Of a DNA stretch of 39,818 nt, positions 2,838-39,818 are shown one piece after another (the first letter of the stretch is position 1; each line of letters opens with the position of its first letter). The translations under genes were made by a program, and so were the position numbers. The DNA is from Actinomycetota bacterium. GTDB lineage: Bacteria; Actinomycetota; Actinomycetes; Nanopelagicales; Nanopelagicaceae. Under the pieces are notes generated by a model that searched no databases, had not been told where the DNA came from, and saw only the letters and a program-made list of their open reading frames with translations. The stretch covers positions 1 through 39,818 of the forward strand of contig JAQBVO010000012.1 in the NCBI GenBank assembly GCA_027728065.1. Reading direction: 5' to 3'.

Positions 2838-2880
2838 TGCAGCCGTAGGCTATCGCTTGTAACGATTGAAAAGAGGAAAT

Positions 2881-25983: not shown

Positions 25984-26034
25984 AAACCTTCACAATCCCA
26001 TGGATTTTGAAGATAAAAAGAATTATCGTGAGCC

Positions 26035-26658
26035 ATGGGGATTTTCAGTAAGAAAAGCGATGACCATTTGGTCTTACTCACGCCAGATGGCTCTTTGCCT
26101 GAGTTTGGTGGGCAAGAAGGTTTCAATAAATACATTCAAGACCTAATTATCACCCCCGAAAAATATGATGGAAACAAAGGTATTGCCCAATCGGACATGG
26201 ATGCGTATATAGATGCAACAGCGTCACTAGCGGCACTTGGAATTGACTCCGAGGGTACAACAGAGAAGATTTATGCTTATGGGCCTATCGTAATTAGTGA
26301 CCTTCCTGGATATCGTGCAGAAATGCAGTGACATGGCGTGGTTACCGAAAACTATTTGATTGTTCGATTTGCATATGGCCGAGGATTTAATTACTTCATC
26401 CCTCCGTATGAGGAAATTGCGGGGGTCAAATCTAATGACGCACTCTCAGCGTACTTCTCATTCAGAAATTCCATGTTTTACGACAAAAAGGGACGACAGC
26501 ATTTACAGGCCCAAACTATTTTTCTAGCCTGCAAGACAGGTAAAGATGGTTATGAGAATCGCAGGGCATTTTCAATGTGGCATACCAATGCCCACATGAT
26601 TAAGAGTGTGTTAGTTAATTTTCGCTCACGCTCAAACTTAACTAACAGCCCTTTCTGA
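26035..26658 (+). pseudogene. unknown protein gene split by one in-frame TGA
   Basis: Codons 26035-26328 encode 98 residues (MGIFSKKSDDHLVLLTPDGS...). A TGA at 26329-26331 interrupts, and the same frame continues for over 100 more residues after HGVV, through RFAYGRGFNYFIPPYEEIAG and AFSMWHTNAHMIKSVLV to the stop at 26656-26658. Because the frame is unchanged and both halves look like ordinary soluble protein, a single gene of about 207 codons broken by one nonsense change is the simplest reading. The second half could restart at GTG 26338. I do not recognise the family. No clear ribosome site precedes ATG 26035. It lies in the tRNA-bounded island. Confidence 0.5.
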
Positions 26659-26820
26659 GCCTGCTAACACACGCTCAGTAAGTCACCGTGCTCTACCAAC
26701 TTGTCCTTCGCACATAATGATGACATATTTTTGATAAATAATCTATAGTAAATATATGTATGTCTTTATGTTACGGGGTTGGAGTGCGATGAGGATTGAT
26801 TCTCAATACGCAAGAGAAAT

Positions 26821-27552
26821 ATGATCTACCTTAAATATCTGAATTTTTTATTTATAAAAACAACCAAGGTTGCTGGAACATCCTTTGAATTAGCTTTGTC
26901 AAAATTTGCTAGCCCAGAATGCATAGTCACACCGCTAACTAATGACGATGAAATCAAAAGAAAATCACTTGGTTTTAGGGGTCCGCAAAACTATAGATAT
27001 AGCATCTCTGAATTCAAAAAGATTCCTCGGAAGGAAATATTTAAATCAGCGCTTAACCGCTCAATTCCTCAGAAATACTGGAATCACATACCAGCAAGAG
27101 ACATTAAAAAAAGAATGCATCGCGATGAATGGGAAAACTGCTTCAAGGTCTCAATAGTAAGAGATCCTTTTGATATGGCTGTATCACGGTATTACTGGGA
27201 CATTGATACCGAGAAGAATAGAGCACGGATTTCTTTCGATAGTTATATCTCGCTGAATCCTTCTGTACTTACACTAAACAAACGTATAACTCACGTGGAG
27301 AATCAGAGCTGTTTAGACTTTGAAATACGATACGATCGCATTAATGAAGATGTTGAAATTCTTGAGCAGAGATTTCCAGCTTTGCAGGGGCTTTCCAGTG
27401 TATTTAAACAAATCAATGCGAAAGCAGGCTTTAGGGATAAATCCAAAACACTCGCAGATATATATAGAGATTCGCCTAAAGCTCATCGGATTATTAGTGC
27501 CGTTTGTAAGGAAGAAATTGAGCTCTATAAATTTGAAATTCCGAACTGGTAA
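26821..27552 (+). CDS. sulfotransferase-family protein (Sulfotransfer_2-like)
   Basis: Members transfer sulfate from PAPS to hydroxyl groups of carbohydrates or other acceptors. The 243-residue protein has the 5'-phosphosulfate-binding signature near its N-terminus (FIKTTKVAGTSFELAL, residues 11-26) and a 3'-phosphate-binding segment near residue 110 (SIVRDPFDMAVSRYYW). The stretch SLGFRGPQNYRYS near residue 50 is shared with family members I know from surface-polysaccharide and phage contexts. ATG 26821 has AAGAG just upstream and overlaps the stop of an 11-codon leader ORF (26789-26824). Base composition is clearly more AT-rich than the flanking genes, supporting transfer. It is the only apparently intact gene in the island; its acceptor is unknown. 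Confidence 0.72.
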   Translation: MIYLKYLNFLFIKTTKVAGTSFELALSKFASPECIVTPLTNDDEIKRKSLGFRGPQNYRYSISEFKKIPRKEIFKSALNRSIPQKYWNHIPARDIKKRMHRDEWENCFKVSIVRDPFDMAVSRYYWDIDTEKNRARISFDSYISLNPSVLTLNKRITHVENQSCLDFEIRYDRINEDVEILEQRFPALQGLSSVFKQINAKAGFRDKSKTLADIYRDSPKAHRIISAVCKEEIELYKFEIPNW

Positions 27553-27683
27553 CAGAACCATTAAGTGTAGAAATTCCTAAAAAACTTGATAAGTTCTAAG
27601 ATCATTGGAAATTGAACGGCAAGTTGTTTAAAGCCTACTTCGCAATAATTATTACCATAACAGGACTTTCCAATTGGGTCGAG

Positions 27684-27746
27684 AATTCCTGGTGATTGAT
27701 ACTCACCCAGTCATTGACTAATAGTGAGTATCAATCACCAGGAATT
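27684..27746. repeat. perfect 23-bp inverted repeat with a 17-base loop
   Basis: The arm at 27684-27706 (begins AATTCCTGGTGATTG) is the exact reverse complement of 27724-27746. There is no T-run on either side, so it is not a standard Rho-independent terminator. On the minus strand the right arm continues the apparent integrase coding frame (codons for Asn-Ser-Trp and then TGA), so the left arm looks like an inverted copy of part of that gene. It may mark a rearrangement point. The stretch 27553-27953 otherwise holds only the integrase remnant and the right paired 9-mer. Confidence 0.85.
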
Positions 27747-27803
27747 GCCGACTTTGTATGTGTGGCCATAACCATTTGATTTACGACGAATGACTTCTGA
27801 CAT
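27735..27803 (-). pseudogene. 5' remnant of a probable tyrosine-recombinase (integrase) gene
   Basis: On the minus strand ATG 27803-27801 opens a 22-codon frame reading MSEVIRRKSNGYGHTYKVG, then NSW and TGA (27737-27735). The pattern RRK-x-NG-x-G-x-x-Y-x-VG-x-x-W is what I expect from the N-terminal arm-binding domain of phage and island integrases. The frame ends inside the inverted repeat, and I find no catalytic domain beyond it, so the gene is truncated. AGG lies nine bases before the ATG. Its position beside the right tRNA copy, just inside the paired 9-mers, matches an integrase gene at an att site. The fragment is very short, so this is tentative. Confidence 0.4.
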
Positions 27804-27867
27804 AATTTTTGCCTATCTGTAACCAGCAACGCTGGCTAAGAGACGGATTCATTACGGGACTGGCTGG

Positions 27868-27890
27868 AAATGCATACCTAATGCATACCT
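27868..27890 (+). repeat. paired 9-mer near the right end (candidate integrase arm site)
   Basis: TGCATACCT occurs at 27871 and again at 27882, 11 bases apart and in the same direction, preceded by AAA as in the left copy. It lies 63 bases before the right tRNA-Tyr and about 65 bases upstream of the integrase-like ATG. The 11-base period places both boxes on the same DNA face. Confidence 0.45.
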
Positions 27891-27945
27891 GCCCTGGTGG
27901 TTAGGGTGACCTCCAGCACCGATTAAACTCAATCAACGCTGCAAA

Positions 27946-28041
27946 TCGACCCTGGCGGGTTGCCCGAGCGGCCAATGGGAGGGGACTGTAAATCCCCCGG
28001 CTTATGCCTTCGAAGGTTCAAATCCTTCACCCGCCACCAGT
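27946..28041 (+). repeat. right copy of the tRNA-Tyr direct repeat (candidate attR core)
   Basis: This copy matches 25790-25885 with one difference, at 27952. Upstream and downstream sequences are unrelated to those of the left copy, so the repeat boundaries are sharp. Confidence 0.85.
27954..28039 (+). tRNA. tRNA-Tyr (anticodon GTA), copy 2
   Basis: The sequence is identical to copy 1 over all 86 bases, including the GGCGGGT/ACCCGCC acceptor stem, GTA anticodon, long variable arm and encoded CCA. All stems pair, so both genes look functional. It ends 28 bases before the GTG of the FAD oxidoreductase gene. Which copy is ancestral cannot be told from sequence alone. Confidence 0.96.
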
Positions 28042-28067: not shown

Positions 28068-29351
28068 GTGAGCAAAGCAATCGTTATTGGCGCCGGAGTA
28101 ATCGGCTGCTCGATTGCTTATGAAATGGCACGCCAGGGTTATGACGTTATTGCAGTAGATAAGGCCCAGAGCCCAGGACAGGGCTCATCAAATGCATCAA
28201 GTGCAGTTGTTCGTTTTAATTACTCTACTTTTGATTCAGTAGCCCTTGCATGGGAGTCATTTCATTGCTGGAAAAACTGGCCTGAGCATCTTGGTAATAA
28301 ACAGGAGCGCTATTCACAGATGATAGATGTGGGTGTGGTTATGTTGGATGCACCCGTAATTTCAGGTGAGAAAACATCACAGTTATTTGAAGCTGTTGGA
28401 GTCCCGTATGAAGTATGGAGTTCAGATGAGCTGAGTAAAAATGTGAATGGAATCGATGTTGGTAAGTACTGGCCACCAAAGTTATTGGCCGATGGAGCGT
28501 TTTGGGAAGATGCCAAACATTCACTTGGTGCAATCTTCACACCAAATGGCGGTTATATCGATGATCCATTACTTGCAACGCAGAATTTGGCACAAGCTGC
28601 ACTTAATACTGGTGTTACGTTTCGTTTCAAAACTACAGTAACAGCTATTCTTCGCGAGGGAAATAAAACCCTTGGCATAGAAATAAATAACTCTGAAAAG
28701 ATTTTTTCCGATATCGTAATCAATGTTGGTGGACCATGGTCTAATCAAATTAATGCACTTGCCGGAGTTGGCCAAGATTTCACAATTTCTGTGAGACCCA
28801 TGCGGCAGGAAGTTCATCAAATCAATACTCCAATGAACTTACTTCCAGGTCCCATTATTGGTGATCTAGACCTTGGAACATATATGAGATCTACGCCAGC
28901 GGGTTCAACACTTATCGGTGGCACCGAACCTGAGTGCGATGGGCTTGAGTGGGTAGATGATGTCGACGCGGTTAATCTCAATAGAACGAAGGAAAAGTTT
29001 GAAGCCCAAGTTACGCGTGCAGCTCGCAGGCTTCCCGCACTAAAGATTCCAAACGCACCATCTGGCATCGCTGGCATTTATGACGTTGCCTCGGACTGGA
29101 CGCCTATATATGATCGAACTGATCTTGATGGCTTCTATGTAGCGATAGGCACTAGTGGAAATCAATTTAAGAACGCTCCCATGGTCGGCAAACTCATGGG
29201 CCAACTCATTAGTAAAGTCAGTGGTGGACGTAACCACGATGTTGAGCCTGTGCGGGTGCGCTGTGGGCATACGGGAAATGAGATCAATATGGGAGCTTTT
29301 TCGCGTAAACGTTTATTTAACTCTGAAAATACTGGGACGGTGATGGGCTGA
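28068..29351 (+). CDS. FAD-dependent oxidoreductase of the DAO (D-amino-acid/glycine/sarcosine oxidase) family
   Basis: The family oxidises amines or amino acids, giving an imine. The 427-residue protein starts with the dinucleotide-binding fold (AIVIGAGVIGCSIAYEMARQG, GxGxxG at residues 8-13, shown here only as landmark) and ends its FAD domain with GFYVAIGTSGNQFKNAPMVG near residue 350. Middle sequence such as IGGTEPECDG near 285 is typical of the sarcosine-oxidase beta-like branch. The substrate cannot be assigned. GTG 28068 follows tRNA copy 2 by 28 bases, with no strong ribosome site. It converges on the PaaX regulator, so membership of the aromatic block is uncertain, though an amine oxidase would suit a nitrogen-containing aromatic substrate. 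Confidence 0.78.
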   Translation: MSKAIVIGAGVIGCSIAYEMARQGYDVIAVDKAQSPGQGSSNASSAVVRFNYSTFDSVALAWESFHCWKNWPEHLGNKQERYSQMIDVGVVMLDAPVISGEKTSQLFEAVGVPYEVWSSDELSKNVNGIDVGKYWPPKLLADGAFWEDAKHSLGAIFTPNGGYIDDPLLATQNLAQAALNTGVTFRFKTTVTAILREGNKTLGIEINNSEKIFSDIVINVGGPWSNQINALAGVGQDFTISVRPMRQEVHQINTPMNLLPGPIIGDLDLGTYMRSTPAGSTLIGGTEPECDGLEWVDDVDAVNLNRTKEKFEAQVTRAARRLPALKIPNAPSGIAGIYDVASDWTPIYDRTDLDGFYVAIGTSGNQFKNAPMVGKLMGQLISKVSGGRNHDVEPVRVRCGHTGNEINMGAFSRKRLFNSENTGTVMG

Positions 29352-29383
29352 AATTCGCAAGTATTTAAAACTTTTCTGGCGCA

Positions 29384-30238
29384 CTACTTTTTGGCGATAT
29401 TTAATACAAAATTTAAAGCCGGACCAGCTAATTTGTCATGTAACTCAAAGAAGTTTTCAGTTGCTTGGTAGCCAGCCCAAGATTTAGGCAAAAACTCGTC
29501 AGCAAGACCTGGGTCGAAATATGGCGCATGCCGCCAATTTGTAAGTATTGTTGTGTAGTCACGAAATGCTCTAGCTGCATCGATTACGTTGTTTCTAGAA
29601 GCCCAATATTTAATGACGGGTTTGGTAGTTTTACTAAAAGAGGTATAAACCTCTTGAATACCGTCGAGATCCCACCATTCTTGGACTGCGGCAGATGTAG
29701 GCACAAAGGCCATATGTTCGGCGGAAAATACATTCATATATTTTTCAACTTTGAGTGATTTAGCTAGTGAGATCGCATCGCTACTTAGCTGACGAGGGGC
29801 TATCCAAAGCCCACCGCTCACTTGCGCAAAACCTATTCTCGTTAAGCGAGATCTAACTTGATACCGCACTGATCGAAGTTTTTCAGGAATTGAAAATGCA
29901 ACCAATATCCAACCCTCGTTAATGGGGGAGTCGCGGCGCTGAAGTACTCGAGAATCACCTTGGTCGAAGGACTTTCGCATTTCGGGAGAAATCGCATACC
30001 CAATAACGCCATTTTGCTTTTTTGAGACCAAGATTCCTCGCCGTTTAAATCGTGCAAGTGCGCTCCTGGCGGCATCTTCGGCGACATCTAGTTCGGCACA
30101 GAGTTGGATGATCGTATTCGCCGAGAACCAACCTCCGTTGGAGCGGCTATAAGCGGCGAAAATAGTGATGATCAGAGACTGAGGGCGCGCAGATCTATCA
30201 ACTAAATCTCGGGCTTCTCCACTTAAAATACTGTCCAT
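29384..30238 (-). CDS. PaaX-family transcriptional regulator
   Basis: PaaX is the repressor of phenylacetate catabolism and is released by phenylacetyl-CoA; family members usually sense aryl-CoA compounds. The 284-residue protein has the N-terminal winged-helix region (PQSLIITIFAAYSR near residue 19, ALARFKRRGILVSKK near 60), a central segment with WILVAFSIPEKLRSVRYQVR near 110 and GGLWIAPRQ near 140, and a C-terminal domain. It diverges from the thioesterase gene, with an 82-base gap that must hold both promoters. The aryl-CoA pathway next to it makes local regulation very likely; the inducer is unknown. I see no paa oxygenase genes here. Confidence 0.85.
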   Translation of the reverse strand: MDSILSGEARDLVDRSARPQSLIITIFAAYSRSNGGWFSANTIIQLCAELDVAEDAARSALARFKRRGILVSKKQNGVIGYAISPEMRKSFDQGDSRVLQRRDSPINEGWILVAFSIPEKLRSVRYQVRSRLTRIGFAQVSGGLWIAPRQLSSDAISLAKSLKVEKYMNVFSAEHMAFVPTSAAVQEWWDLDGIQEVYTSFSKTTKPVIKYWASRNNVIDAARAFRDYTTILTNWRHAPYFDPGLADEFLPKSWAGYQATENFFELHDKLAGPALNFVLNIAKK

Positions 30239-30292
30239 TTGGGAATGCTAGTGTGCAGGAGTGTAATTGTAAGGGTTTCTAAAGAGAATAAT

Positions 30293-30307
30293 TAAGATAG
30301 GTACCTA
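30293..30307 (+). promoter_or_regulatory. candidate promoter and operator before the thioesterase gene
   Basis: TAAGAT at 30293-30298 could be a -10 box, and the perfect 10-base palindrome TAGGTACCTA (30298-30307) abuts it where transcription would start, a good place for a repressor. The thioesterase GTG follows at 30321 after a GGGGGG ribosome site. On the opposite strand TACAAT (30271-30266) is a candidate -10 for the regulator. Assignment to PaaX is a guess. Confidence 0.3.
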
Positions 30308-30320
30308 CCGGGGGGTTCTA

Positions 30321-30713
30321 GTGGCTAACGCATATGTTGAAGTAACGCGGATCTTAGAGTGGATGGAGACCGATGCTAGTGGCCATCAACATTACACATC
30401 GGCATTTCGTTGGGTGGAGGAGTGCGAGTCTGCTTTGTATCGCAAGCTAGAACTTCCGACCTCTCTATTCGGCCAAATTCCACGAGTAAAAGTCCAGATG
30501 GAATATAAGCGACGTATATTCTTCGGCGAAGAAATCCTCACACGTCTTGAAGTTATTAGAGTTGGTAACTCATCACTTGAATTTGCTTTTACAGCACATG
30601 TTGCTGGCGAACTCGCAGCTATTGGAAATTACATAATTGTGCACTCTCCAGTAATCGGTGAAGGTGCTAAGTCATGGCCAGATGCATGGCGCGCAGCATT
30701 TTTAGGAAAGTAG
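30321..30713 (+). CDS. hot-dog-fold acyl-CoA thioesterase (4HBT family)
   Basis: The 130-residue protein matches the 4-hydroxybenzoyl-CoA thioesterase/YbgC group: METDASGHQHYTSAFRWVEE near residue 16 contains the D-x-x-G-H core with the catalytic acid, followed by the long helix and the VKVQMEYKRRIFFGEEI strands near 52. Such enzymes hydrolyse acyl- or aroyl-CoA; here the likely job is releasing CoA from dead-end aryl-CoA compounds. The GTG start has a G-rich ribosome site about five bases upstream. Its end overlaps, convergently, the remnant at 30702 by 12 bases. Confidence 0.75.
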   Translation: MANAYVEVTRILEWMETDASGHQHYTSAFRWVEECESALYRKLELPTSLFGQIPRVKVQMEYKRRIFFGEEILTRLEVIRVGNSSLEFAFTAHVAGELAAIGNYIIVHSPVIGEGAKSWPDAWRAAFLGK

Positions 30714-31173
30714 TTTTGCAACCATCAATCCACTTCCACCGCCCACACCGCCACCAGGCCATGTTCCAGAGCCACATAAGTAAAGATTCTTAACTGGTGT
30801 TCTATGTCGAATCCAACCCGGCATAGGGCGCAAGAAGAAGAACTGCGCAGGGTGATGGCTTCCACCAAGAGAATCACCTTTTATTAAGTTTGGGTTATAG
30901 CGCTCTAAATCTGTTGGTGAAAGAGTTTTTCTCGCCAAGATTTGAGATTTCAAGCCAGGTGCATATGTTTCTAAGTTTTCTATAATACGATCGGCGTAGG
31001 TTTCGGCAACTTCATCCCATGATTTACCTTGAATTATTCCTGCACTATCGCTAGTGATTTCTAGTGGTAATACGCGAACTTGAAATCCATAAAATATGCT
31101 TTTCTTCTGGAGCACGAGCCTGATTTTCCAGAGTTTGAAAGTCAAGAGGCGAGATGAACTTTGAATCAAGCAT
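30702..31173 (-). pseudogene. C-terminal remnant of a phytoene-desaturase-like FAD oxidoreductase, with a frameshift
   Basis: The last 130 or so residues match the C-terminal part of the CrtI/retinol-saturase-like family: SWDEVAETYADRIIENLETY, APGLKSQILARKTLSPTDL, FFFLRPMPGW, and the FAD-closing NLYLCGSGTWPGGGVGGGSG. Upstream, the recognisable lead-in (FISPLDFQTLENQARAPEE, then KHILW) is in a different frame starting at ATG 31173, and the change of frame falls near 31070-31085. Full-length relatives are about 500 residues and begin with a GxGxxG FAD site that is absent here. The remnant therefore seems both N-terminally truncated, exactly where the monooxygenase gene ends, and frameshifted. 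The substrate of the lost enzyme is unknown. Confidence 0.65.
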
Positions 31174-33559
31174 CAAATGATGCAGTGATTTGCTCGTAAG
31201 AGAGTGAACTCTTTGCAGTTGCCGCCATCTGCTTTTCTCGCTCAATGTTTCGTTCGATTTGAACTTTGGCAGAGATGTACTGCTTAGGCCATGTGACATT
31301 CTTATAGCCAATCTTGGCCGCCTCTAAGAGTGTCCAGGCCGGGTTGACTAAGTGCATACGTGCTACTGCACATAAGTCGGCGCGACCAGCTGCGATGATC
31401 GTATTTACATTGTCGGCTTCAAAGATTGCGCCAACTGCAATTGTCGCGATACCTGCCTCATTTCGGATTTGATCAGCAAATGGTGTTTGGAACATGCGAC
31501 CAAATACTGGCTTTTCTCTCTTAGTTACTTGACCAGATGAACAGTCAATGAGATCTGCGCCAGCTGCTTTAAATGCCTTAGCGATTTCAACAGCATCCTG
31601 TGGAGTGATTCCACCTTCAGTCCAATCGTGGGCTGAGATACGTACGCTAATTGGTTTGCCTTCCGGCCAGACCTCTCGTACCGCTGCAAAAATCTCTAGA
31701 GGATATTTCATTCGGTTCTCAAGAGAGCCACCGTACTCATCGCTTCGACGATTTGTGATGGGAGAGATAAATGATGAGAGCAAATACCCATGAGCTGCGT
31801 GAAGCTCTAACCAATCAAAGCCTGCAACTTCTGCAGCCTTTGTTGAGTTAATAAAATCTTGCTTAACTCGATCCATATCCGCACGTGTCATCTCGCGCGA
31901 TGTCTGTGAAACTCCAGCTAAGTATTGTTCTGGAGAGGCAGAAATGAGAGGCCATGAATCGGTTTCCACTGGCTTATCCATTCCATCCCAAGCAAGTTTG
32001 GTTGCACCCTTTGCACCTGCATGGCCAATTTGAACTGCGATCTTTGCATCGCTATTTGAATGAACGAAATCAACGATGCGCTTCCAACCGATGGTGTGCT
32101 CGGGCTTATAGAGTCCTGGGCACCCTGGAGTGATACGCGCATCAGCGCTCACGCAGGTCATCTCAGTAAAGACCATTCCAGCTCCACCCATAGCACGGGC
32201 TCCTAAGTGAACAAGGTGGTAATCAGCGGCTAGTCCATCTTCGGATGAGTACTGTGCCATCGGTGAAACTACAACACGGTTTTTCAAAACTACATCGCGG
32301 ACTTTAAAAGGTGTAAACATAGGTGGAATATTGTCAACGTTAGTTGGGAGTTCTAGGCCAGCATCGGCAAAGGCTTTAGTTGCAAACCACTTGTCGTATT
32401 TGGCTATGAAGTCGGCATCACGGACGCGCAAATTATCATGTGAAATTCTCTGGCTACGAGTCAGAAGTGAGAAATTAAACTGCTCTGGCGGCATATTGGT
32501 ATAGCGCCCAGTCTCTTCAAACCACTCCATCGCATTGCGTGCCGCATTTTGAATCTTGAGGACCTCAATTGCACGGGTCTCTTGGTATGAAGCCAGGATT
32601 TCATGCATATCCCCAGTCGTACTTGCAGCAATCGAGTTAGCAAGTTCAATCGCATCTTCCATGGCCAATTTTGTGCCTGAACCAATTGAGAAGTGTGCGG
32701 TATGAGCGGCATCTCCCATCAATACAACTGGAACTTCCTTGCCATCAATTGAGTTCCACTGAACCCAGTTTTCACAAATCACACGCGGGAATTTAATCCA
32801 GCTAGCTGAACCACGTAAGTGAGCTGCGTTACTCATTAACTCGGCGCCATCAAGGTGTTTTGCAAATAATTTCTCACAAAATGCTATCGACTCCTCTTGC
32901 GACATCTCATCTATTCCTGCGCGCAGCCACACATCTTCTGGCGTTTCTACGATAAAAGTAGATGTGTCCCCATCGAATTGATAGATGTGTGCCTGAAACC
33001 AACCAAACTCAGTGTTTTCGAAGATAAAAGTGAAGTCTTTAAAGAGTTTTTTTGTCCCTAGCCAAACAAAACGGCACTTGCGTGTATCGATATCAGGTTT
33101 AAAAGTACTCGCATAGCGGGTACGGATGGCGCTATTTAAACCATCGGCAGCAATTACTAAATCGGCGCCGTACTGGCGTGCAGCCTCTTGATCATCTTTA
33201 ATATCGGCTTCAAAGACTAATTTAACGCCTAAACCCTCGGCACGCTCTTGAAGGATGTTAAGAAGTCGTTTTCTGCCAATTCCGCAGAAGCCATGTCCAC
33301 CAGAAATAATGCTGGTGCTGTTGATTCGCACATCAATGTCATCCCAGTGATTAAAAGACTGCAATATCGTACGAGCCGTTGGCTCATCTGCCCGCACAAA
33401 GTTGCTCAAAGTCTGGTCCGAGAAAACGACACCCCATCCAAAAGTGTCATAGGGGCGATTGCGCTCCAAGACAGTGATCTCATTACTGGGGTCGAGTTTC
33501 TTCATGAGAATTCCAAAGTAAAGTCCGGCTGCACCACCACCGATAGAAAGAATCTTCAT
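31166..33559 (-). CDS. flavin monooxygenase/Old Yellow Enzyme fusion, 2-aminobenzoyl-CoA monooxygenase/reductase type
   Basis: Two flavoenzymes are fused in 797 residues. The N-terminal part (1 to about 395) is a salicylate-hydroxylase-like FAD monooxygenase with [32 protein letters not shown] near 132 and the ribityl-binding [18 protein letters not shown] near 275. The C-terminal part (about 410-775) is an Old Yellow Enzyme/NADH:flavin oxidoreductase with [26 protein letters not shown] near 505 and [20 protein letters not shown] near 580. This architecture is that of 2-aminobenzoyl-CoA monooxygenase/reductase, which hydroxylates and then reduces the aromatic ring of anthraniloyl-CoA; databases often call it salicylyl-CoA 5-hydroxylase/oxidoreductase. 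A strong AAGGGG ribosome site precedes ATG 33559. It diverges from the SDR gene at 33689. Ring substrate is inferred. Confidence 0.85.
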
Positions 33560-33633
33560 TAACTACCCCTTTAAAATACTCTCACCTGGTATGCCGAATA
33601 TTTGACTTTCGTCAAGGATACGACACGAACATG

Positions 33634-33649
33634 TGTACGCTAGCGCACA
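33634..33649. promoter_or_regulatory. candidate operator, 16-bp near-palindrome in the divergent monooxygenase/SDR region
   Basis: TGTACGCTAGCGCACA is symmetric except for one base pair, centred at 33641/33642, between the divergent starts at 33559 and 33689. A second short inverted repeat, TTGAC-TTTC-GTCAA, lies at 33602-33615. The half GCTAG-N4-CAGGAG is also seen before the PaaX gene at 30247-30261, so both regions may share a regulator. No experimental support. Confidence 0.35.
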
Positions 33650-33688
33650 GGAGGCCAACTGGCGACTCCTGCAACGGGAGAAAATCTT

Positions 33689-34465
33689 ATGGCGAAAAAT
33701 CGATTTACTGGCAAGGTTTTCGTAATAACAGGTGGGGCTGGTGGGTTAGGGGCAGCAATCGCCCAAGAGGCCGGGTTACAAGGTGGCGCCATTGCCATCC
33801 TGGATACAAATAGTGATGCTATCGATTCACTTCTTATAAATTTGCGCTCACGTGGAATTAAAGCAGAGGGTCGCGCAGTTGATGTCAGAGATGGCAATGC
33901 AGTCACGCAGGCCATAGGCGAACTCTCAGATGCATTATCAGGAATAGATATATTGATCACAGCCGCCGGTGGTTCTCTTGGAACCCCCCGAGATATGGAT
34001 GATATTTCAGATGAAGATCTTGGTTTAGTTTTAGATGTAAATGTTAAGGGCACCTATTACTGTGCACGGGCGGTGATACCCCACATGAAGAAAAAAGGTG
34101 GGGGATCAATTATCACTTTTTCATCAATCGGGGGACGCAGTGCTAGTCCAGTAACTGGGGTTCCTTATGCAACTGCAAAGGCTGCAATTCTTGGACTTAC
34201 CCGCCGCCTGGCGAAGGAAGTTGGTTTGGATAATATCCGGGTCAATGCAATTGCACCAGGACTTTTCCTTACGGACCGTCTAGCAGAGATGTTTGGGAGT
34301 TTATCTGAAATTGAACAAAATGAAGTTATTGCAGGCATTCCCCTTGGCCGAATGCCAGAGATTCGCGAGTGTATAGATCCTGTGCTTTTCTTAGCCAGCC
34401 AGGAATCCTCATACATCACGGGAGCAGTGCTTGATGTAAATGGTGGAAGGCTTATGTCAAATTGA
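33689..34465 (+). CDS. short-chain dehydrogenase/reductase (SDR)
   Basis: A classical SDR of 258 residues with the cofactor site VFVITGGAGGLGAAIAQEAG (TGGxxGLG near residues 14-21), an LITAAGG segment near 92 replacing NNAG, the catalytic serine in ITFSSIGG near 145, the YATAK active site near 160, and a C-terminal GAVLDVNGG typical of FabG-like enzymes. Asp at the end of the second strand (ILDTN) favours NAD(H). A GGGAG ribosome site precedes ATG 33689. In this block a role reducing or oxidising a ring- or chain-borne oxygen of a CoA-bound intermediate is plausible; the substrate is not evident. It converges on the BadI-like gene with a three-base gap. Confidence 0.85.
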   Translation: MAKNRFTGKVFVITGGAGGLGAAIAQEAGLQGGAIAILDTNSDAIDSLLINLRSRGIKAEGRAVDVRDGNAVTQAIGELSDALSGIDILITAAGGSLGTPRDMDDISDEDLGLVLDVNVKGTYYCARAVIPHMKKKGGGSIITFSSIGGRSASPVTGVPYATAKAAILGLTRRLAKEVGLDNIRVNAIAPGLFLTDRLAEMFGSLSEIEQNEVIAGIPLGRMPEIRECIDPVLFLASQESSYITGAVLDVNGGRLMSN

Positions 34466-34468
34466 TTT

Positions 34469-35266
34469 TTATATTTGCTTCTTAAAATCAGGAGAGCGCT
34501 TCTGCGTAAAAGCAGCGCCACCCTCTTTTGCCTCATCTGTCTTTATGTAGAGATCTAAAACATCAAAGGAGAGTGCGGCGATCCCAGCAATATGGTCGGT
34601 ATCGGCATTGAAAGAGTGTTTAAGAGCTTTGAGCGCTGTTGGAGAGAGTGCGCAGATTTTTAAAGCCCACTCCATTGCCGCATTCATAAGTTGATTAGGT
34701 TCAACTACTTTATTAACCAATCCCCAACGCTCGGCAGTTACAGCGTCATACTGTTCGCACAGAAACCAGATTTCACGGGCGCGTTTTTCGCCTACTACTC
34801 GCGCCAAGTAGGCACTTCCAAAGCCGGCATCGAAGGAGCCAACACGTGGGCCCACTTGACCAAACTTGGCAGTTGTAGATGCGATAGAGAGATCTGCTAG
34901 CACGTGTAGAACATGCCCACCACCTATTGCAAAGCCATTAACTGCTGCAATGACTGGCTTTGGAACTGCACGAATCATTTTATGTAGCGCCTCAATCTCA
35001 AACATTCCAGTTTCAGTTTCACCATACCCACCAGTCTCAGCACGCTCTTTCTGGTCTCCGCCAGTACAGAATGCTTTTTCACCTGCGCCAGTAAGGATGA
35101 CTGCACCAACTGCGGTATCAACCCACGCTCGCTTAAATGAGCTAAGGAGTTCATCGACAGTGCGCCCACGCAGTGCGTTATAGCGCTCTGGGCGATTGAT
35201 AGTTATTACTGCAACGCCTTGGTCGATGACGTAAGTTGTGTCCATTAGCTTCTCCACTGAAATCAT
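34469..35266 (-). CDS. BadI-like 2-oxocyclohexanecarboxyl-CoA hydrolase (crotonase family)
   Basis: The 265-residue crotonase-fold protein resembles BadI of Rhodopseudomonas palustris, which opens the ring of 2-ketocyclohexanecarboxyl-CoA to pimeloyl-CoA, the reverse of MenB-type chemistry. Shared BadI-like features: FCTGGDQ near residue 67, [16 protein letters not shown] near 110, GQVGPRVGSFDAGFGSAYLA near 137, VVGEKRAREIWFLCEQYD, and a tail with [12 protein letters not shown]. It differs from the window's own MenB in the FCTGGDQ motif and in the tail. Two starts are possible, ATG 35266 and ATG 35245; the second has GGAGAAG six bases upstream. It follows the thiolase in the same direction by 27 bases. 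Separation from MenB is by recalled similarity and context. Confidence 0.72.
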   Translation of the reverse strand: MISVEKLMDTTYVIDQGVAVITINRPERYNALRGRTVDELLSSFKRAWVDTAVGAVILTGAGEKAFCTGGDQKERAETGGYGETETGMFEIEALHKMIRAVPKPVIAAVNGFAIGGGHVLHVLADLSIASTTAKFGQVGPRVGSFDAGFGSAYLARVVGEKRAREIWFLCEQYDAVTAERWGLVNKVVEPNQLMNAAMEWALKICALSPTALKALKHSFNADTDHIAGIAALSFDVLDLYIKTDEAKEGGAAFTQKRSPDFKKQI

Positions 35267-35293
35267 TGCTACACCTTATCCTTGAACCATTGA

Positions 35294-36475
35294 TTAAACC
35301 GAAACCTCGATGGCAACTGCAACCCCTAGGCCAACACCAATACATGCCGCGGCAATCCCAATGCCCCCACCGCGCCGCTTTAACTCTCGTGCGCACTCGA
35401 CAATAATGCGAGATGCAGAGGCACCAACTGGGTGGCCAATGGCAATCGCCCCACCATTGACGTTAACAATCTTGGGATCGATATCTGGGATTTCATGGAG
35501 AACAGTTAAAACCATCGATGCGAAGGCCTCATTAATCTCCCAAAGGGCGATATCTGCGACGTTACGATCAATCTTTGCGAGGAGCTTATGAATTGCCAAG
35601 ACAGGAGTTAGTGAAAATTGGGCAGGATCAGTTGCAGTCACTTGTGATGCAATAATTTTCCCAAGAGGTTCAAGACCAAACTCCTTCATTAGTGCTGTAT
35701 TTGTAATTAAGGTGGTTACACAGCCATCATTTAAGGGCGATGAGTTACCGGCAGTGCCGGCACCATTGGGAGAAAATGAAGATGCAAGCTTGCCCAAAAT
35801 TTCTAAAGTTGAATCTGGGCGAATAGATTCATCACGCTTTACGGCACCAAATGGGACCACCCAACCATCATGTAAAGCTTTATTCCATGCCTCATTAGCC
35901 AAGAGATGCGATCTCAATGCCCACTCATCTTGTTCAATTCGTGAAATTCCAAGTTTTTCGGCGACAACTTCTGAGCAGCGCCCAAGGCTTTGAACCCAGC
36001 TCTCTTGCATGAGTGGATTTGTCATTCTCCAACCCACAGTGCTTTGGTGAAACTTAGGATTAGTTGGCTCTTGTTTGCCCTCTCGTTGCACAATCCAAGG
36101 TGCCCGACTCATACTTTCAACGCCGCCAGAGATAATAAAGTTAGCATCGCCAGATTTAACTGCTCTAGCTCCTTGAATAATAGCTTCGGCACCTGATCCA
36201 CATAATCTATTCAGGGTTAGGCCAGGAACTGTATTTGGAAAGCCTGCGAGTAGTGCACCCATTCGGGCAACATTTCGATTATCTTCCCCTGCTCCATTGG
36301 TATCACCCATGATGACATCATCTATGTGTGCTGCATCTATTTGTGGAGTGCGTTCCATGAGTGTTCGTAAGGTAAAACCGAGAAGGTCATCTGGACGAGT
36401 AGTTGATAAACCCCCAAGATATTTGCCAAAGGGCGTTCGAACCGCGCTGACTATGAACGCCTCAGGAGTTGTCAT
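35294..36475 (-). CDS. acetyl-CoA acyltransferase (thiolase)
   Basis: A degradative-type thiolase that cleaves 3-oxoacyl-CoA with CoA. The 393-residue protein has the nucleophilic cysteine in TLNRLCGSGAEAI near residue 88, GGVESMSRAPW near 117, the histidine in NGGAIAIGHPVGASAS near 350 and the second cysteine in AAACIGVGLGVAV near 380. The length matches the family, with catalytic residues intact. In context it would take the last step of chain shortening after ring opening, giving acetyl-CoA and a shorter diacyl-CoA. Upstream lies a symmetric divergent promoter shared with the SDR at 36570. Confidence 0.9.
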   Translation of the reverse strand: MTTPEAFIVSAVRTPFGKYLGGLSTTRPDDLLGFTLRTLMERTPQIDAAHIDDVIMGDTNGAGEDNRNVARMGALLAGFPNTVPGLTLNRLCGSGAEAIIQGARAVKSGDANFIISGGVESMSRAPWIVQREGKQEPTNPKFHQSTVGWRMTNPLMQESWVQSLGRCSEVVAEKLGISRIEQDEWALRSHLLANEAWNKALHDGWVVPFGAVKRDESIRPDSTLEILGKLASSFSPNGAGTAGNSSPLNDGCVTTLITNTALMKEFGLEPLGKIIASQVTATDPAQFSLTPVLAIHKLLAKIDRNVADIALWEINEAFASMVLTVLHEIPDIDPKIVNVNGGAIAIGHPVGASASRIIVECARELKRRGGGIGIAAACIGVGLGVAVAIEVSV

Positions 36476-36513
36476 ATCGCGTATTATTGCCTATCGTTAG
36501 AAAAACGCACCAC

Positions 36514-36533
36514 CTATAATGAACTTATTATAG
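36514..36533. promoter_or_regulatory. symmetric divergent promoter/operator between thiolase and the second SDR
   Basis: A perfect inverted repeat, CTATAAT-GAACTT-ATTATAG, contains a consensus -10 box on each strand: TATAAT at 36515-36520 for the plus-strand SDR (start 36570) and TATAAT at 36532-36527 for the minus-strand thiolase (start 36475). Neither has a convincing -35. Leaders would be about 45 bases each. A dimeric repressor bound here would silence both genes; alternatively the symmetry simply reflects two overlapping -10 boxes. Confidence 0.45.
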
Positions 36534-36569
36534 TTAGAAGTATCCCACAGAGATGGAGTAGCCACTTTT

Positions 36570-37319
36570 ATGGCAATCCCACTGAGGGTTTTAGTAGTTG
36601 GAGCGGGCCGAGGAATTGGTCGATCCATTTCAATTCAATTACTGGATTTAGGTTATAGCCTCGCACTATGTTCACGAACTCAAGCCGATCTCGAGCGCTT
36701 AATTCAGGGCCGGAGTAATAAAACTTTAGTTATTCCCGCTGATGTCACTTCAGCTAATACCGCAGAATCAGTAATTGAGAAAGTTGTAAGCGCATGGGGC
36801 GGGATAGACGTTCTCATTCTCAATGCTGGAGATGGCATAAGTGCTCCGCTAGATAAGACTACTGATGAGATATGGGAGCGGATGCTCAATCTGAATTTAA
36901 CTGCCCCATTTAAATTCATGAGAGCTGCATTGCCACACATGAAGCTCAATAAAAGCGGGCAAATAATTGTGATCGCCAGTAAAGCAGGATTATTTGGTGA
37001 AGCAAATGTTGCTGCTTACACTGCCGCTAAACACGGCGTCGTAGGTTTAGTTCGAGCCGCGGCAAGTGAACTTTCCCGCTACGGAATAAGAGTTAATGCC
37101 ATATGCCCTGATTTTGTAGATACTCCTATGACCGAACGCACGCTACAGGCCGCTGCGATGCGAACAGGCAAGAATATTGATGAAGTTAAAATGGCACTTG
37201 AATCAAAACTTTCAGGTGGAAGATTTCTGACCTCTGAAGAAGTAGCCGAAGCTGCAATTTCATTTATTGGTGCAGAAAGTAAAAACGGGATCACTCAACT
37301 ACTCGAAGGAGGGCGTTAA
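36570..37319 (+). CDS. short-chain dehydrogenase/reductase (SDR), second copy
   Basis: A 249-residue classical SDR not closely similar to the one at 33689. It has LRVLVVGAGRGIGRSISIQL at the start (GxxxGIG cofactor site), the Arg of LALCSRTQ suggesting NADP(H), LILNAGDG near 87, the catalytic YTAAKHG near 150, and RVNAICPDFVDTPMT near 175. GGAG lies about eleven bases before the ATG. It is the first gene of a plus-strand unit with the RidA-like gene (one base apart), the acyl-CoA synthetase and the partial ligase. Likely acts on an oxo or hydroxy group of a pathway intermediate; substrate unknown. Confidence 0.83.
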   Translation: MAIPLRVLVVGAGRGIGRSISIQLLDLGYSLALCSRTQADLERLIQGRSNKTLVIPADVTSANTAESVIEKVVSAWGGIDVLILNAGDGISAPLDKTTDEIWERMLNLNLTAPFKFMRAALPHMKLNKSGQIIVIASKAGLFGEANVAAYTAAKHGVVGLVRAAASELSRYGIRVNAICPDFVDTPMTERTLQAAAMRTGKNIDEVKMALESKLSGGRFLTSEEVAEAAISFIGAESKNGITQLLEGGR

Positions 37320-37320
37320 T

Positions 37321-37713
37321 ATGACAAACAAGAAGGTTAATCCAGAGAGCCTTGCTCCTCCGACCGGATTTTCACATGCAGTTTTAGCAGATGGTAAGTA
37401 TATTTTCTTAGCTGGGCAAACTGCGCTCAGCAAAGAGAATGTAATTGTTGGGGATAATATTGTCAGCCAATTCGAAAAGGCACTCATTAATTTAGTGACT
37501 GCATTGCGCGAGGCAGGCGGAACCCCAGAAGACTTGGTTAAAATTACGATTTTTTCAGTTGATCCAGTTGATTATCGGGCGCACTCACGAGAAATTGGGA
37601 AAACGTGGCAATCTCTTTTAGGTAAGAATTACCCTGCAATGACACTCGTCGGCGTAACTCGGCTTTGGGATAATGGCGCCCTCGTTGAAATTGAAGGCAT
37701 AGCCTGCATCTAA
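37321..37713 (+). CDS. RidA-family protein lacking the usual carboxylate-binding arginine
   Basis: RidA (YjgF/YER057c/UK114) proteins hydrolyse enamines and imines to ketones and ammonia. The 130-residue protein fits: GFSHAVLADGKYIFLAGQTA near residue 20, QFEKALINLVTALREAGGTP near 60, and the ending LVEIEGIACI with the conserved glutamate. In archetypal RidA the motif PAR supplies the arginine that grips the substrate carboxylate; here it reads YPAMTLVGV, with Met in that place. Such changes are known among other Rid subfamilies and imply a different substrate. ATG 37321 is chosen for its strong GAAGGAGGG ribosome site, one base after the SDR stop. In this cluster, a CoA-bound cyclic enamine is the natural candidate (inference). 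Confidence 0.82.
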   Translation: MTNKKVNPESLAPPTGFSHAVLADGKYIFLAGQTALSKENVIVGDNIVSQFEKALINLVTALREAGGTPEDLVKITIFSVDPVDYRAHSREIGKTWQSLLGKNYPAMTLVGVTRLWDNGALVEIEGIACI

Positions 37714-39779
37714 TGAAGAATCTTTCGCTTTTATGGAACGCTCAATCGGTTGCGATTATCGGCGCTACTGAGCGTGAAAATGCCATGGGACGAGCTCCGA
37801 TTGAGTATCTACAGAGGTATGGCTATGCAGGAAAGATTTATCCAATCAATCCTAAGAGCTCAACGATTCTGGGATTGCAAGCCTTTGCAAAGATTACGGA
37901 AGTAAAAGCGGAGATTGATTTAGCACTCATCATGCTTCCTGCAGGATCTGTCGAGGCGGCTTTAGTCGAATGCGGAGAAGCTGGAGTTAAAATAGTTATT
38001 GTTATGTCATCTGGCTTTGCAGAGTCAGATGAAGCCGGTGAATTAGCCCAAATGCGACTGGTAGAGATTGCTAAGAGAACTGGAATGCGCTTAGTTGGAC
38101 CCAACTGTATCGGCTCAGTTGGTGGTGCGAAAAAACTAGTTGCATCTTTTTCGCCAGTATTTTCCTCCCCAACCACAGTTGTTGAATCTGGAAACGTTGC
38201 TTTAGTAAGCCAATCAGGTGCGCTCGGATATGGAATGTATTCATTGGGTATTGAGCAAGGAGTGCCCCTAGGAGTTGTAGTAACCACCGGCAATGAGGCA
38301 GATGTAACAAATTTAGAGGTAGCTAATGTGCTAGCTGATGACCCCTCAATTTCTGCGATTTTGCTCTATGCAGAGTCATTAGCAGATATTGAGGCTCTGC
38401 GCAGAATTTCTGCTAAGAAGCCCACCGCAATACTAAAAGTTGGAAGATCGAGAGATGGTGCAACTGCCGCAGCTTCACATACTGGGGCACTTGCGACTGA
38501 GGATCGAATTATTGATGCCGCAATTAAGACAACTGGTGCCGTGCGCGTTGATAATGTGGAACAACTATTGGATGCGGGTTCAATCTTTGCCACAGGATTG
38601 AAATCTTTAGGCAAAAGAGTGGCGATTATTACTACTTCAGGTGGAAGTGGAATTCTGGCGACAGATGCCTTAGAAAGTAATGGCCTAGAACTTGCGGAGC
38701 TAGCGCCAGAGAGCTTAGCCGAGCTTAGAAATATCATCCCTTCGTATGGAAATGCAAATAATCCAGTCGATGTAACCGCCGCCGTAATGTCATCGCCTGA
38801 TCTATTTGAAAAATGCTTAGAACTCTTGGCCAAAGATGCCGGTGTTGATTCTATTATTGCCTGCTTCGCCGTGCTTGTAGGAAATGACGTAGAGCGAATT
38901 GCTTCTGCTTTAGGTGGCGTTAAGCAGATTCGCAACATTCCTATCGCAGTTGCGCGCACTGGGTCAAAAAATTTAGCCCCTCATGCTAGTGCGATATTTA
39001 AACAGTTTAATCTACCTGTTTACCCAACACCTGATAGGGCAGTTACTGCATTAAGAATCTTAAATGACAGCGGACAAGTTATCGAGAGAATCAAACTGAG
39101 AAATTCTTCTGAGAAATTCCCAACTCCTTCTGATACTGCAACAGAAGTTGAAATGAAAGAGCTTTGGAGGAGCCTTGGTGTTCCTGTTCCATTATCAGTT
39201 GTAGTCAGGGATGAAAGTCAGATTCAATCGGCCATCGAATTTGTTGGTGGACGCGCAGTGTTAAAGGCCGTGATTCCAGGCTTACTTCACAAGAGCGAGG
39301 CCGGCGCAGTCGCCTTAGATATTACTGCCATCAATGCTCAAGCAACCTATATCCGTCTTTCCCAACTTTCAGGTGCTGAATTAAAAAACGATGTTCTTGT
39401 CGAAACCTTTATTCCAAAGGGAGTAGAGGCGCTAGTCGGTGTTACCTCATCTGCACTTGGAAAAGTTTTGACTATTGGAGTAGGTGGGGTTTTGACGGAG
39501 ATTATTTCGGATGTATCTATCCGTTTATTGCCGGTAGATGAAGATACGGTGCGCCAAATGATCGCTGAAACTCGACTTGCTCAACTTTTTGCTGGTGCGC
39601 GTGGGTCTGAGCCAGCTGACACAGCAGCATTTATTGCCGCGGTTTTAAGGATAGCCGAAGTTGCTAGTACATTCCCGGATGCAAGTGAGTTGGATATCAA
39701 CCCACTTACTGTTTTGCCACAAGGGGCTTGGGTGCTAGATACTGCTTATTCAATGCCGACAGAAGTGGAGCATCGTTAA
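37713..39779 (+). CDS. ADP-forming acyl-CoA synthetase (acetyl-CoA synthetase/Pat-like fold)
   Basis: The 688-residue protein has the domain order of NDP-forming acyl-CoA synthetases. A CoA-binding Rossmann domain comes first (SVAIIGATERENAMGRAPIE near residue 13). A succinyl-CoA-ligase-like part follows, with GNVALVSQSGALGYG near 165 and the phosphorylatable histidine in AAASHTGALATED near 250. Last comes an ATP-grasp part from about 465, with AVLKAVIPGLLHKSEAGAV near 520. It could activate an aromatic acid, re-activate a dicarboxylic acid released after ring opening, or work in reverse to conserve energy as ATP. The start overlaps the RidA-like stop (TAATG). Confidence 0.85.
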   Translation: MKNLSLLWNAQSVAIIGATERENAMGRAPIEYLQRYGYAGKIYPINPKSSTILGLQAFAKITEVKAEIDLALIMLPAGSVEAALVECGEAGVKIVIVMSSGFAESDEAGELAQMRLVEIAKRTGMRLVGPNCIGSVGGAKKLVASFSPVFSSPTTVVESGNVALVSQSGALGYGMYSLGIEQGVPLGVVVTTGNEADVTNLEVANVLADDPSISAILLYAESLADIEALRRISAKKPTAILKVGRSRDGATAAASHTGALATEDRIIDAAIKTTGAVRVDNVEQLLDAGSIFATGLKSLGKRVAIITTSGGSGILATDALESNGLELAELAPESLAELRNIIPSYGNANNPVDVTAAVMSSPDLFEKCLELLAKDAGVDSIIACFAVLVGNDVERIASALGGVKQIRNIPIAVARTGSKNLAPHASAIFKQFNLPVYPTPDRAVTALRILNDSGQVIERIKLRNSSEKFPTPSDTATEVEMKELWRSLGVPVPLSVVVRDESQIQSAIEFVGGRAVLKAVIPGLLHKSEAGAVALDITAINAQATYIRLSQLSGAELKNDVLVETFIPKGVEALVGVTSSALGKVLTIGVGGVLTEIISDVSIRLLPVDEDTVRQMIAETRLAQLFAGARGSEPADTAAFIAAVLRIAEVASTFPDASELDINPLTVLPQGAWVLDTAYSMPTEVEHR

Positions 39780-39818
39780 ATGGATGTTGGCACACTTGTA
39801 GCGCGGGCAACGCGTGCC
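39780..39818 (+). CDS. start of a further CDS, possibly an AMP-forming acyl-CoA ligase (cut by the window edge)
   Basis: ATG 39780 follows the TAA of the ADP-forming synthetase without a gap, and 13 codons are visible (MDVGTLVARATRA). The pattern resembles the opening of AMP-forming acyl-/aryl-CoA ligases, which often begin with a short lead and an RAxRxxPDR-like stretch. The identity rests on very little sequence. If right, this would be the aromatic-acid CoA ligase expected for the pathway. Confidence 0.4.
   Translation, partial: MDVGTLVARATRA

Follow-up and report, generated by a model that had tools for sequence, protein, structure and literature searches.

The window analysed here is the whole of contig C18 (JAQBVO010000012.1; 39818 bp), part of a 1.40 Mb assembly (G000) that is rated 99% complete and presumably derives from acI, a group of streamlined freshwater actinobacteria. 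From 29384 to the contig end it carries, as open reading frames, a gene set that includes a fusion of a flavin monooxygenase with an old yellow enzyme (OYE) domain, a PaaX-like regulator, a thioesterase-like protein, two short-chain dehydrogenases (SDR1 and SDR2), a crotonase, a PcaF-like thiolase, a Rid-family protein and two acyl-CoA-activating enzymes, the last of which is represented by only 13 codons because the contig ends at 39818 (Table 1). The same genes recur together in many genomes, which excludes a chance grouping. Comparison with these genomes suggests an aerobic pathway for 2-aminobenzoyl-CoA (anthranilate) with a known front end and a different back end, a reading to which we assign a probability of roughly 55%.

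The front end of the pathway is of the known abm kind. The fusion exceeds the NF006101 cut-off over residues 1-782 and unites a monooxygenase domain (PF01494) and an OYE domain (PF00724, at 414-743) in one chain. Its closest match in a plasmid collection, a Caballeronia protein 68% identical to it, is encoded in a cluster that also holds SDR, hydratase, acyl-CoA dehydrogenase, Rid and ligase genes. Records from Comamonas, Limnohabitans and Azospirillum, as annotated by others, place SDR, hydratase, dehydrogenase and Rid genes with the fusion, joined in some by a ligase and a thioesterase. Among these companions the window itself holds SDR, Rid and thioesterase genes; a ligase-family gene lies on contig C42 of the same assembly and adjoins the fusion in Crossiella. 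An earlier note on this DNA knew of no description of its gene set as one pathway, a claim that fails for fusion, Rid, ligase and thioesterase, which together make up an ordinary abm-type cluster such as that of Comamonas. The cluster of Azoarcus (Aromatoleum) evansii published in 2001 reportedly included a 'putative translation inhibitor', the former name of Rid proteins. Besides such a Rid-type protein, the acI cluster would share with the A. evansii pathway the fused monooxygenase/OYE and the first intermediates. Passages in reviews of that route lead from 2-aminobenzoyl-CoA to 2-amino-5-oxocyclohex-1-ene-1-carbonyl-CoA and on to 'beta-oxidation' (PMC4539516).

It is in the back end that the cluster departs from this kind. 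An enoyl-CoA hydratase and an acyl-CoA dehydrogenase are typical of ordinary abm clusters: among 22 ordinary fusion neighbourhoods (16 actinobacterial, 6 proteobacterial), the hydratase was present in 20 and the dehydrogenase in 19, and none of the 22 held the mutase, NDP-forming synthetase or crotonase clade described here. In acI, Crossiella and Phytoactinopolyspora the usual back end is replaced by another gene set, comprising a crotonase of an apparent third clade beside MenB and BadI, a PcaF-like thiolase, two CoA ligases (an NDP-forming synthetase and an AMP-binding ligase, AMPL) and a distinct B12-dependent acyl-CoA mutase. Crotonase, thiolase and synthetase genes occurred together in 16 of the 21 fusion neighbourhoods from the host's family (one cut by the end of its stretch); none of the 21 had an acyl-CoA dehydrogenase or a hydratase match above 100 bits. 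The dehydrogenase was likewise absent from the 55 loci found by mutase alignment (the mutase loci), the search being confined to the clusters.

The mutase lies beyond the contig end and alters the likely end of the pathway. In relatives, AMPL and then the mutase follow the synthetase gene downstream, and AMPL stands directly upstream of the mutase in 49 of the 51 loci in which an upstream gene was called (exceptions, L172 and L173). Where a locus extends far enough to hold them (35 cases), crotonase, thiolase, Rid, synthetase and AMPL genes all lie upstream of the mutase in 30. The other five comprise L167 and L171, which hold the set elsewhere on the contig, L182, which lacks Rid, L173, which lacks several of the genes, and L151, which has no crotonase at the locus and a 73% homologue elsewhere on the same contig.

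The three genes also track one another across the family (acI / Ca. Nanopelagicales; 296 genomes, 108 of them rated good). Counting as fusions those matches that cover the monooxygenase part or reach at least 75% identity, and as mutases those of at least 66% identity, we found the fusion in 31 genomes, the crotonase clade in 33, the mutase clade in 33 and all three in 25. Fusion and crotonase coincide in 28 genomes (3 and 5 alone; Fisher p 7e-31), fusion and mutase in 26 (5 and 7 alone; p 4e-26, both values uncorrected for kinship), and crotonase and mutase in 29 (4 and 4 alone). Within the good genomes, fusion and mutase each occur in 11 and jointly in 10. The earlier note had named conserved linkage of fusion, Rid and crotonase genes as a test of its proposal; fusion and crotonase are together in 28 of the 31 fusion-bearing family genomes, and beyond the family the whole set appears again in Crossiella and, over a larger region, in Phytoactinopolyspora.

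In Crossiella sp. S99.2, ~16 kb contain the mutase, AMPL, synthetase, fusion, SDR1, ligase, PaaX, Rid, SDR2, thiolase and crotonase genes. The ligase is benzoate-CoA-ligase-like (350 bits, cut-off 375), and ~2 kb on lie a tryptophan-dioxygenase-like gene (334 bits, cut-off 390.7) and a kynureninase gene (264 bits, over the cut-off of 246.4). Phytoactinopolyspora limicola has three gene groups on one contig within ~53 kb: crotonase, thiolase, SDR2 and Rid; ligase, SDR1, fusion and an isatin hydrolase homologue; and synthetase, AMPL and mutase. SDR1 adjoins the fusion in acI and in both of these genera.

Table 1. Genes of the cluster and its flank in the window, with the profile evidence for each.
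Feature	Coordinates	Strand	Evidence or remark
DAO-type FAD oxidoreductase, possibly associated	28068..29351	+	PF01266 179 bits
PaaX-like regulator	29384..30238	-	TIGR02277 121 bits, below cut-off 264.6; all three PaaX Pfam domains
4HBT-type thioesterase-like protein	30321..30713	+	PF03061 23 bits (cut-off 20.6)
FAD1 C-terminal remnant, CrtI/amine-oxidase-like flavoprotein	30702..31169	-	NF045689 70 bits, C-terminal end only
2-aminobenzoyl-CoA monooxygenase/reductase-type fusion (flavin monooxygenase + OYE), 797 aa	31166..33559	-	NF006101 1337 bits (cut-off 1078)
SDR1, short-chain dehydrogenase, divergent from fusion	33689..34465	+	PF13561, PF00106
Crotonase, MenB/BadI group, putative third clade; predicted ring hydrolase	34469..35266	-	Profile scores and identities
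PcaF-like thiolase	35294..36475	-	PRK09050 392 bits and pcaF TIGR02430 388 bits (597), both below cut-off; TIGR01930 391 bits, over cut-off 240.6
SDR2, short-chain dehydrogenase	36570..37319	+	Opens the run SDR2, Rid, NDP-forming synthetase (AMPL, mutase)
Rid-family protein, Met at RidA Arg105 position	37321..37713	+	PF01042 76 bits
Fused NDP-forming (ATP-grasp) acyl-CoA synthetase	37713..39779	+	PF13549, PF13607, PF13380, PF19045; TIGR02717 392 bits
AMPL, AMP-binding acyl-CoA ligase, first 13 codons only	39780..39818	+	Start identical to orthologue in relative G542

The genes that the earlier note listed are present, though the list misjudged one ligase, misplaced the PaaX gene and overlooked the FAD1 remnant. 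Its PaaX regulator lies just outside the start at 30321 that it gave for the cluster, and of its two acyl-CoA-activating genes, one partial, both exist and the first is an NDP-forming ATP-grasp synthetase rather than an AMP-forming ligase. The G542 orthologue of the cut second gene is an AMP-binding ligase, and the mutase comes next in relatives.

Gene context near the fusion fits 2-aminobenzoyl-CoA as the substrate class, as the earlier note had proposed: ligase, kynureninase and tryptophan-dioxygenase genes in Crossiella and isatin hydrolase genes in several clusters all point to anthranilate, a breakdown product of tryptophan. Were the fusion instead to act on salicylyl-CoA, the cluster would degrade salicylate via gentisyl-CoA, and NF006101 is indeed named bifunctional salicylyl-CoA 5-hydroxylase/oxidoreductase. 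That name presumably rests on likeness to the one-domain SdgC. No gentisate dioxygenase occurred among the window genes scanned at 28068-39776, and Arthrobacter Rue61a, which has fusion homologues, grows on anthranilate via CoA esters and not on salicylate, according to part of its description (PMC3534580). Salicylyl-CoA was set aside on this gene context and is very improbable as the substrate.

We propose that the fusion would dearomatise 2-aminobenzoyl-CoA to a cyclic enamine, and we infer the reactions after it at every step. The Rid protein would hasten hydrolysis of the enamine to 2,5-dioxocyclohexanecarboxyl-CoA, and the MenB/BadI-like crotonase, by analogy with BadI, would hydrolyse the ring between C1 and C2 to give 4-oxopimeloyl-CoA. 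The split B12 mutase encoded downstream in relatives would then shift the thioester carbonyl by one carbon, in a step modelled on methylmalonyl-CoA mutase with succinyl-CoA, and the PcaF-like thiolase would split the resulting 2-methyl-3-oxoadipyl-CoA into succinyl-CoA and propionyl-CoA. The route through 4-oxopimeloyl-CoA is proposed because a mutase acting on a gamma-keto acyl-CoA would yield a 2-methyl-3-oxo acyl-CoA, which suits a PcaF-like thiolase; it needs no acyl-CoA dehydrogenase and therefore fits the absence of that gene from the cluster. The earlier note had the SDRs and thiolase shorten the ring-opened product, and these enzymes alone give no plausible beta-oxidation of 4-oxopimeloyl-CoA. 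For the SDRs one might guess a reduction and later re-oxidation of the second keto group, or a role earlier in the route; the NDP-forming ligase could conceivably recover ATP from a product thioester.

The first of these steps after the fusion agrees with metabolite data. Anthranilate-grown Arthrobacter Rue61a contained CoA esters of C7H7NO3 and C7H8O4 acids, and its authors interpreted the second as cyclohexanedione-carboxyl-CoA, in the portion of the paper that treats these compounds (PMC3534580). The C7H8O4 ester agrees with hydrolysis of the enamine, and so with the cyclohexanedione-carboxyl-CoA of the earlier note. A Rid gene lies near the fusion in 38 of 46 neighbourhoods (L062-L107): 16 of 21 in the family, 16 of 17 in other actinobacteria whose fusion exceeds the NF006101 threshold (the count covers 17 of 18 genomes of this kind), neither of the 2 below it, and all 6 from Proteobacteria, which are plasmids. 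At least one of the five family neighbourhoods without Rid (G687) has it farther along the contig (L130). Rid thus stands beside the fusion in most abm-type clusters examined, and the association is not new.

The name RidA, by contrast with the linkage, does not suit this protein. It belongs to the Rid fold family and has the cluster context of enamine chemistry, but at the position of RidA Arg105 it has Met, as do all 33 proteins of a first alignment, the Rid proteins of all 41 neighbourhoods in a wider recount (40 distinct sequences) and those of all 40 Rid-bearing mutase loci, whose genomes overlap with the fusion set. Its scores reach at most 26.6 bits against the RutC and PRK11401 models and 48 against the Rid model (cut-off 106). 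Arg105 is required for imine hydrolysis by RidA, and Rid4-Rid7 proteins, which lack it, have so far shown no imine deaminase activity in the passages of two studies that deal with this residue (PMC4433059, PMC8113886). Arg105 anchors the carboxylate when the substrate is a free imino acid, so a protein acting on a CoA thioester might naturally have lost it. Another Rid domain is encoded on contig C42 (L120, 3204-4712), joined to an aldo/keto reductase, the domains having been seen in the G542 homologue; its neighbours are a second aldo/keto reductase and a class V aminotransferase-like gene.

The crotonase, which the earlier note called BadI-like, is about equally near MenB. It scores 312 bits against MenB TIGR01929 (cut-off 342.7) and 308 against BadI TIGR03210 (467.6), passing neither; its best solved-structure match is a MenB, BadI being absent among the structures matched; and its identity is 56% with an annotated BadI and 49-55% with four MenB proteins (55% with the solved MenB 2iex). 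Direct comparison gave 61-92% identity to seven others, from G542, Crossiella, Phytoactinopolyspora, Chloroflexi CSP1-4 and plasmids of Mycobacterium dioxanotrophicus, M. paragordonae and Rhodococcus ruber, with the Crossiella, Phytoactinopolyspora and CSP1-4 orthologues at 68-71%. Because it is nearer to these relatives than to BadI or MenB, it forms, as far as sequence comparison goes, a third clade beside the two. Like BadI, a 2-ketocyclohexanecarboxyl-CoA hydrolase, it belongs to the crotonase group, and its predicted substrate is likewise a 2-keto ring carboxyl-CoA. Membership of the clade does not in itself imply the anthranilate pathway, since its three plasmid members (L205, L206 and L207; 60-68%) have no fusion or mutase annotated nearby. 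Those three sit among genes of alicyclic or fatty-acid type. The window contig also has another gene, MenB-like, at 2866-3759.

The mutase (492-497 aa) is without a B12 domain, and a separate B12-binding protein (132-140 aa) and a MeaB-like protein are encoded near it on contig C42 of this assembly and in G542, G414, G483 and G416. It scores 424 bits against the large subunit of 2-hydroxyisobutyryl-CoA mutase and 372 against human methylmalonyl-CoA mutase, and it resembles both enzymes as a split B12 acyl-CoA mutase with a separate B12-binding subunit and MeaB nearby. It departs from them in its link to fusion and crotonase and in five residues: Leu117, Phe195, Thr283, Phe285 and Phe330 replace Phe117, Thr195, Arg283, Ser285 and Gln330 of methylmalonyl-CoA mutase in all 18 distinct members. 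Tyr89, Arg207 and His244 are kept in the same 18; these we take to be the residues that hold the carboxylate in methylmalonyl-CoA mutase, and the five changed positions to belong to the active site as well. Among four ordinary mutases of the family, three keep all five residues and the fourth differs at 285 only (Ala285). One other family mutase resembles isobutyryl-CoA mutase (Phe89, Gln207).

Alternatively, the mutase could be an ordinary methylmalonyl-CoA mutase that does no more than handle propionyl-CoA arising at some point in the pathway, the ring product being beta-oxidised by housekeeping enzymes and the front end unchanged. The kept Tyr89, Arg207 and His244, the two carboxyltransferase genes of the assembly and the MeaB-like GTPase and B12-binding subunit nearby, as with ordinary mutases, would all suit such a role. 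It is nevertheless unlikely in view of the five uniform replacements, at positions of which the ordinary family mutases keep four or five. Furthermore, no methylmalonyl-CoA epimerase in the assembly scored over the cut-off (best 20 bits versus 115; 8 of 14 controls were over it), the mutase clade tracks the fusion and crotonase, a crotonase-mutase pair occurs without the fusion in a Chloroflexi metagenome-assembled genome, and the clusters contain no acyl-CoA dehydrogenase, though the search did not extend to housekeeping dehydrogenases elsewhere.

In this assembly the mutase is on contig C42, which ends in the same synthetase gene as the window and carries AMPL, mutase, ligase, MeaB, B12-binding subunit and transporter genes; its benzoate-CoA-ligase-family gene scores 348 bits (cut-off 375). 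Its overlap with the window is only 81% identical, and C42 may therefore be a second copy of the cluster or come from another (co-binned) strain or relative. A comparable pair of contigs occurs in G556, where C38 and C18 each give a mutase match (95% and 93%) within one assembly, possibly from two cluster copies or from mixed strains.

Several observations weigh against the proposed anthranilate pathway with its replaced back end. The window stops short of the mutase, and C42, which carries it, overlaps the window over 962 bp at only 81% identity. The kept carboxylate residues would also suit a methylmalonyl-like substrate for the mutase, and the assembly has two carboxyltransferase-type genes. 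Neither SDR has a necessary place in the scheme. The Rid protein is without Arg105, and for such proteins no deaminase activity on free imino acids has been seen (PMC4433059, PMC8113886). Five genomes have the fusion without the mutase clade, including G678 (98% complete); seven have the mutase and five the crotonase without the fusion, including G429 (99% complete). Some of the lone cases are contig ends (G417, L128), whereas the near-complete G678 and G429 speak against strict coupling. The loci are mostly metagenome-assembled genomes from one order. Finally, Chloroflexi CSP1-4 has the crotonase (71%), a distant thiolase and the mutase, with no fusion in its 2.6 Mb record set, a combination that favours a functional pairing of crotonase with mutase and disfavours a mutase bound to the fusion as such. 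An aryl-CoA-ligase-like gene lies beside these three genes in CSP1-4 (L173 / L203), where the same ring opening and rearrangement perhaps act on another ring acid.

The back-end metabolites were not reported in the literature searched: among the matches listed for 4-oxopimeloyl-CoA, 4-oxopimelate, 2-methyl-3-oxoadipyl-CoA and similar compounds, only PMC3534580 bears on the pathway. No paper was found that combined names of the fusion with methylmalonyl-CoA mutase, or indolepyruvate ferredoxin oxidoreductase with isatinate, and no acI pathway for anthranilate, isatin or benzoyl-CoA appeared in titles or the openings of abstracts among the matches listed.

Relatives in the family carry an upper module between FAD1 (510-546 aa in these genomes) and the fusion, consisting of a second flavoprotein gene (FAD2), a cyclase-family gene and two indolepyruvate oxidoreductase alpha/beta-like genes (IorAB-like). 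The cyclase scores 308, 288, 287 and 283 bits to four isatin hydrolases, the next match ('cyclase family protein') reaching 112 bits, and is by these scores an isatin hydrolase; kynurenine formamidase was rejected for it, its closest solved structures being isatin hydrolases. Two sources of 2-aminobenzoyl-CoA are proposed: anthranilate, through the benzoate-CoA-ligase-like gene, or, in genomes that retain the upper module, isatin, through isatin hydrolase and action of the IorAB-like pair on isatinate. Action of that pair on aminobenzoylpyruvate or indolepyruvate, in genomes with a tryptophan-dioxygenase-like gene, is possible on paper and less simple. FAD1-, FAD2- and isatin-hydrolase-like sequences also lie near the fusion at L085 and L096, in actinobacteria with the ordinary back end or neither; the upper module is therefore not tied to the new back end.

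This module recalls the iad auxin-degradation loci of Variovorax and Bradyrhizobium, which share with it IorA/IorB homologues, a cyclase-family hydrolase and an isatin-to-anthranilate route. Parts of one account place IorA/IorB homologues in iad loci and describe conversion of isatin to isatinic acid and anthranilic acid (PMC9613470), and a 2025 preprint, in the section concerned, revises the early iad steps (PMC12633357). Unlike iad loci, the annotated acI blocks show no Rieske oxygenase, include two CrtI-like flavoproteins and are followed by a CoA-ester lower pathway. A related case is Azospirillum thermophilum, in which Rieske genes, IorAB-like genes and an abm cluster stand side by side.

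The window itself has lost this module. Its homology to G542 stops at 31116 and resumes at 31185, with ~7.7 kb (L063:1037-8697) missing, so that 30702-31169 is a deletion scar in which the C-terminal remnant of FAD1 is joined to the 3' end of the fusion; a further ~4.2 kb are missing between SDR1 and the crotonase. Together with the failure to find an IorB homologue in the assembly (a search without a positive control), these losses could mean that the cluster is decaying in this organism and that no working pathway is left. Such decay is improbable, since the fusion and all genes at 33689-39779 are intact, and the assembly has adjacent kynureninase-like (230 bits) and tryptophan-dioxygenase-like (260 bits) genes, both below cut-off, which with the benzoate-CoA-ligase-family gene on C42 could still feed anthranilate in.

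The fullest version of the scheme, in which a third-clade hydrolase, a B12 mutase of a new subfamily and a PcaF-like thiolase would form a dehydrogenase-free route to succinyl-CoA and propionyl-CoA, and an IorAB-like enzyme of relatives would turn isatinate into 2-aminobenzoyl-CoA, joining indole or auxin breakdown to it without a ligase, is more tentative, and we would place it somewhat short of even odds. The part worth testing is the crotonase-mutase back end, and a conserved set in place of the usual back end makes the ring-opening step directly testable. If the scheme is true, it would bring an acyl-CoA mutase acting on a new substrate and a Rid protein able to function in the absence of its canonical arginine. 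For acI, a streamlined group that is abundant in lakes, it would further imply an accessory route for anthranilate derived from tryptophan or indole, present in roughly one in ten of the family genomes surveyed (fusion in 31/296).

On the flank of the cluster, PaaX-like genes also adjoin the fusion in Crossiella and in genomes of families f3, f4 and f6, and the 4HBT-type thioesterase gene is kept beside PaaX in family neighbourhoods. The DAO-type oxidoreductase has a close homologue (809 bits) a few genes from PaaX in G542 (L111); its membership of the cluster is doubtful because the other extended neighbourhoods have no counterpart on the PaaX side. Just ahead of the cluster, GC content falls to 40% at 26001-28000, around the open reading frames at 26338 and 26821.

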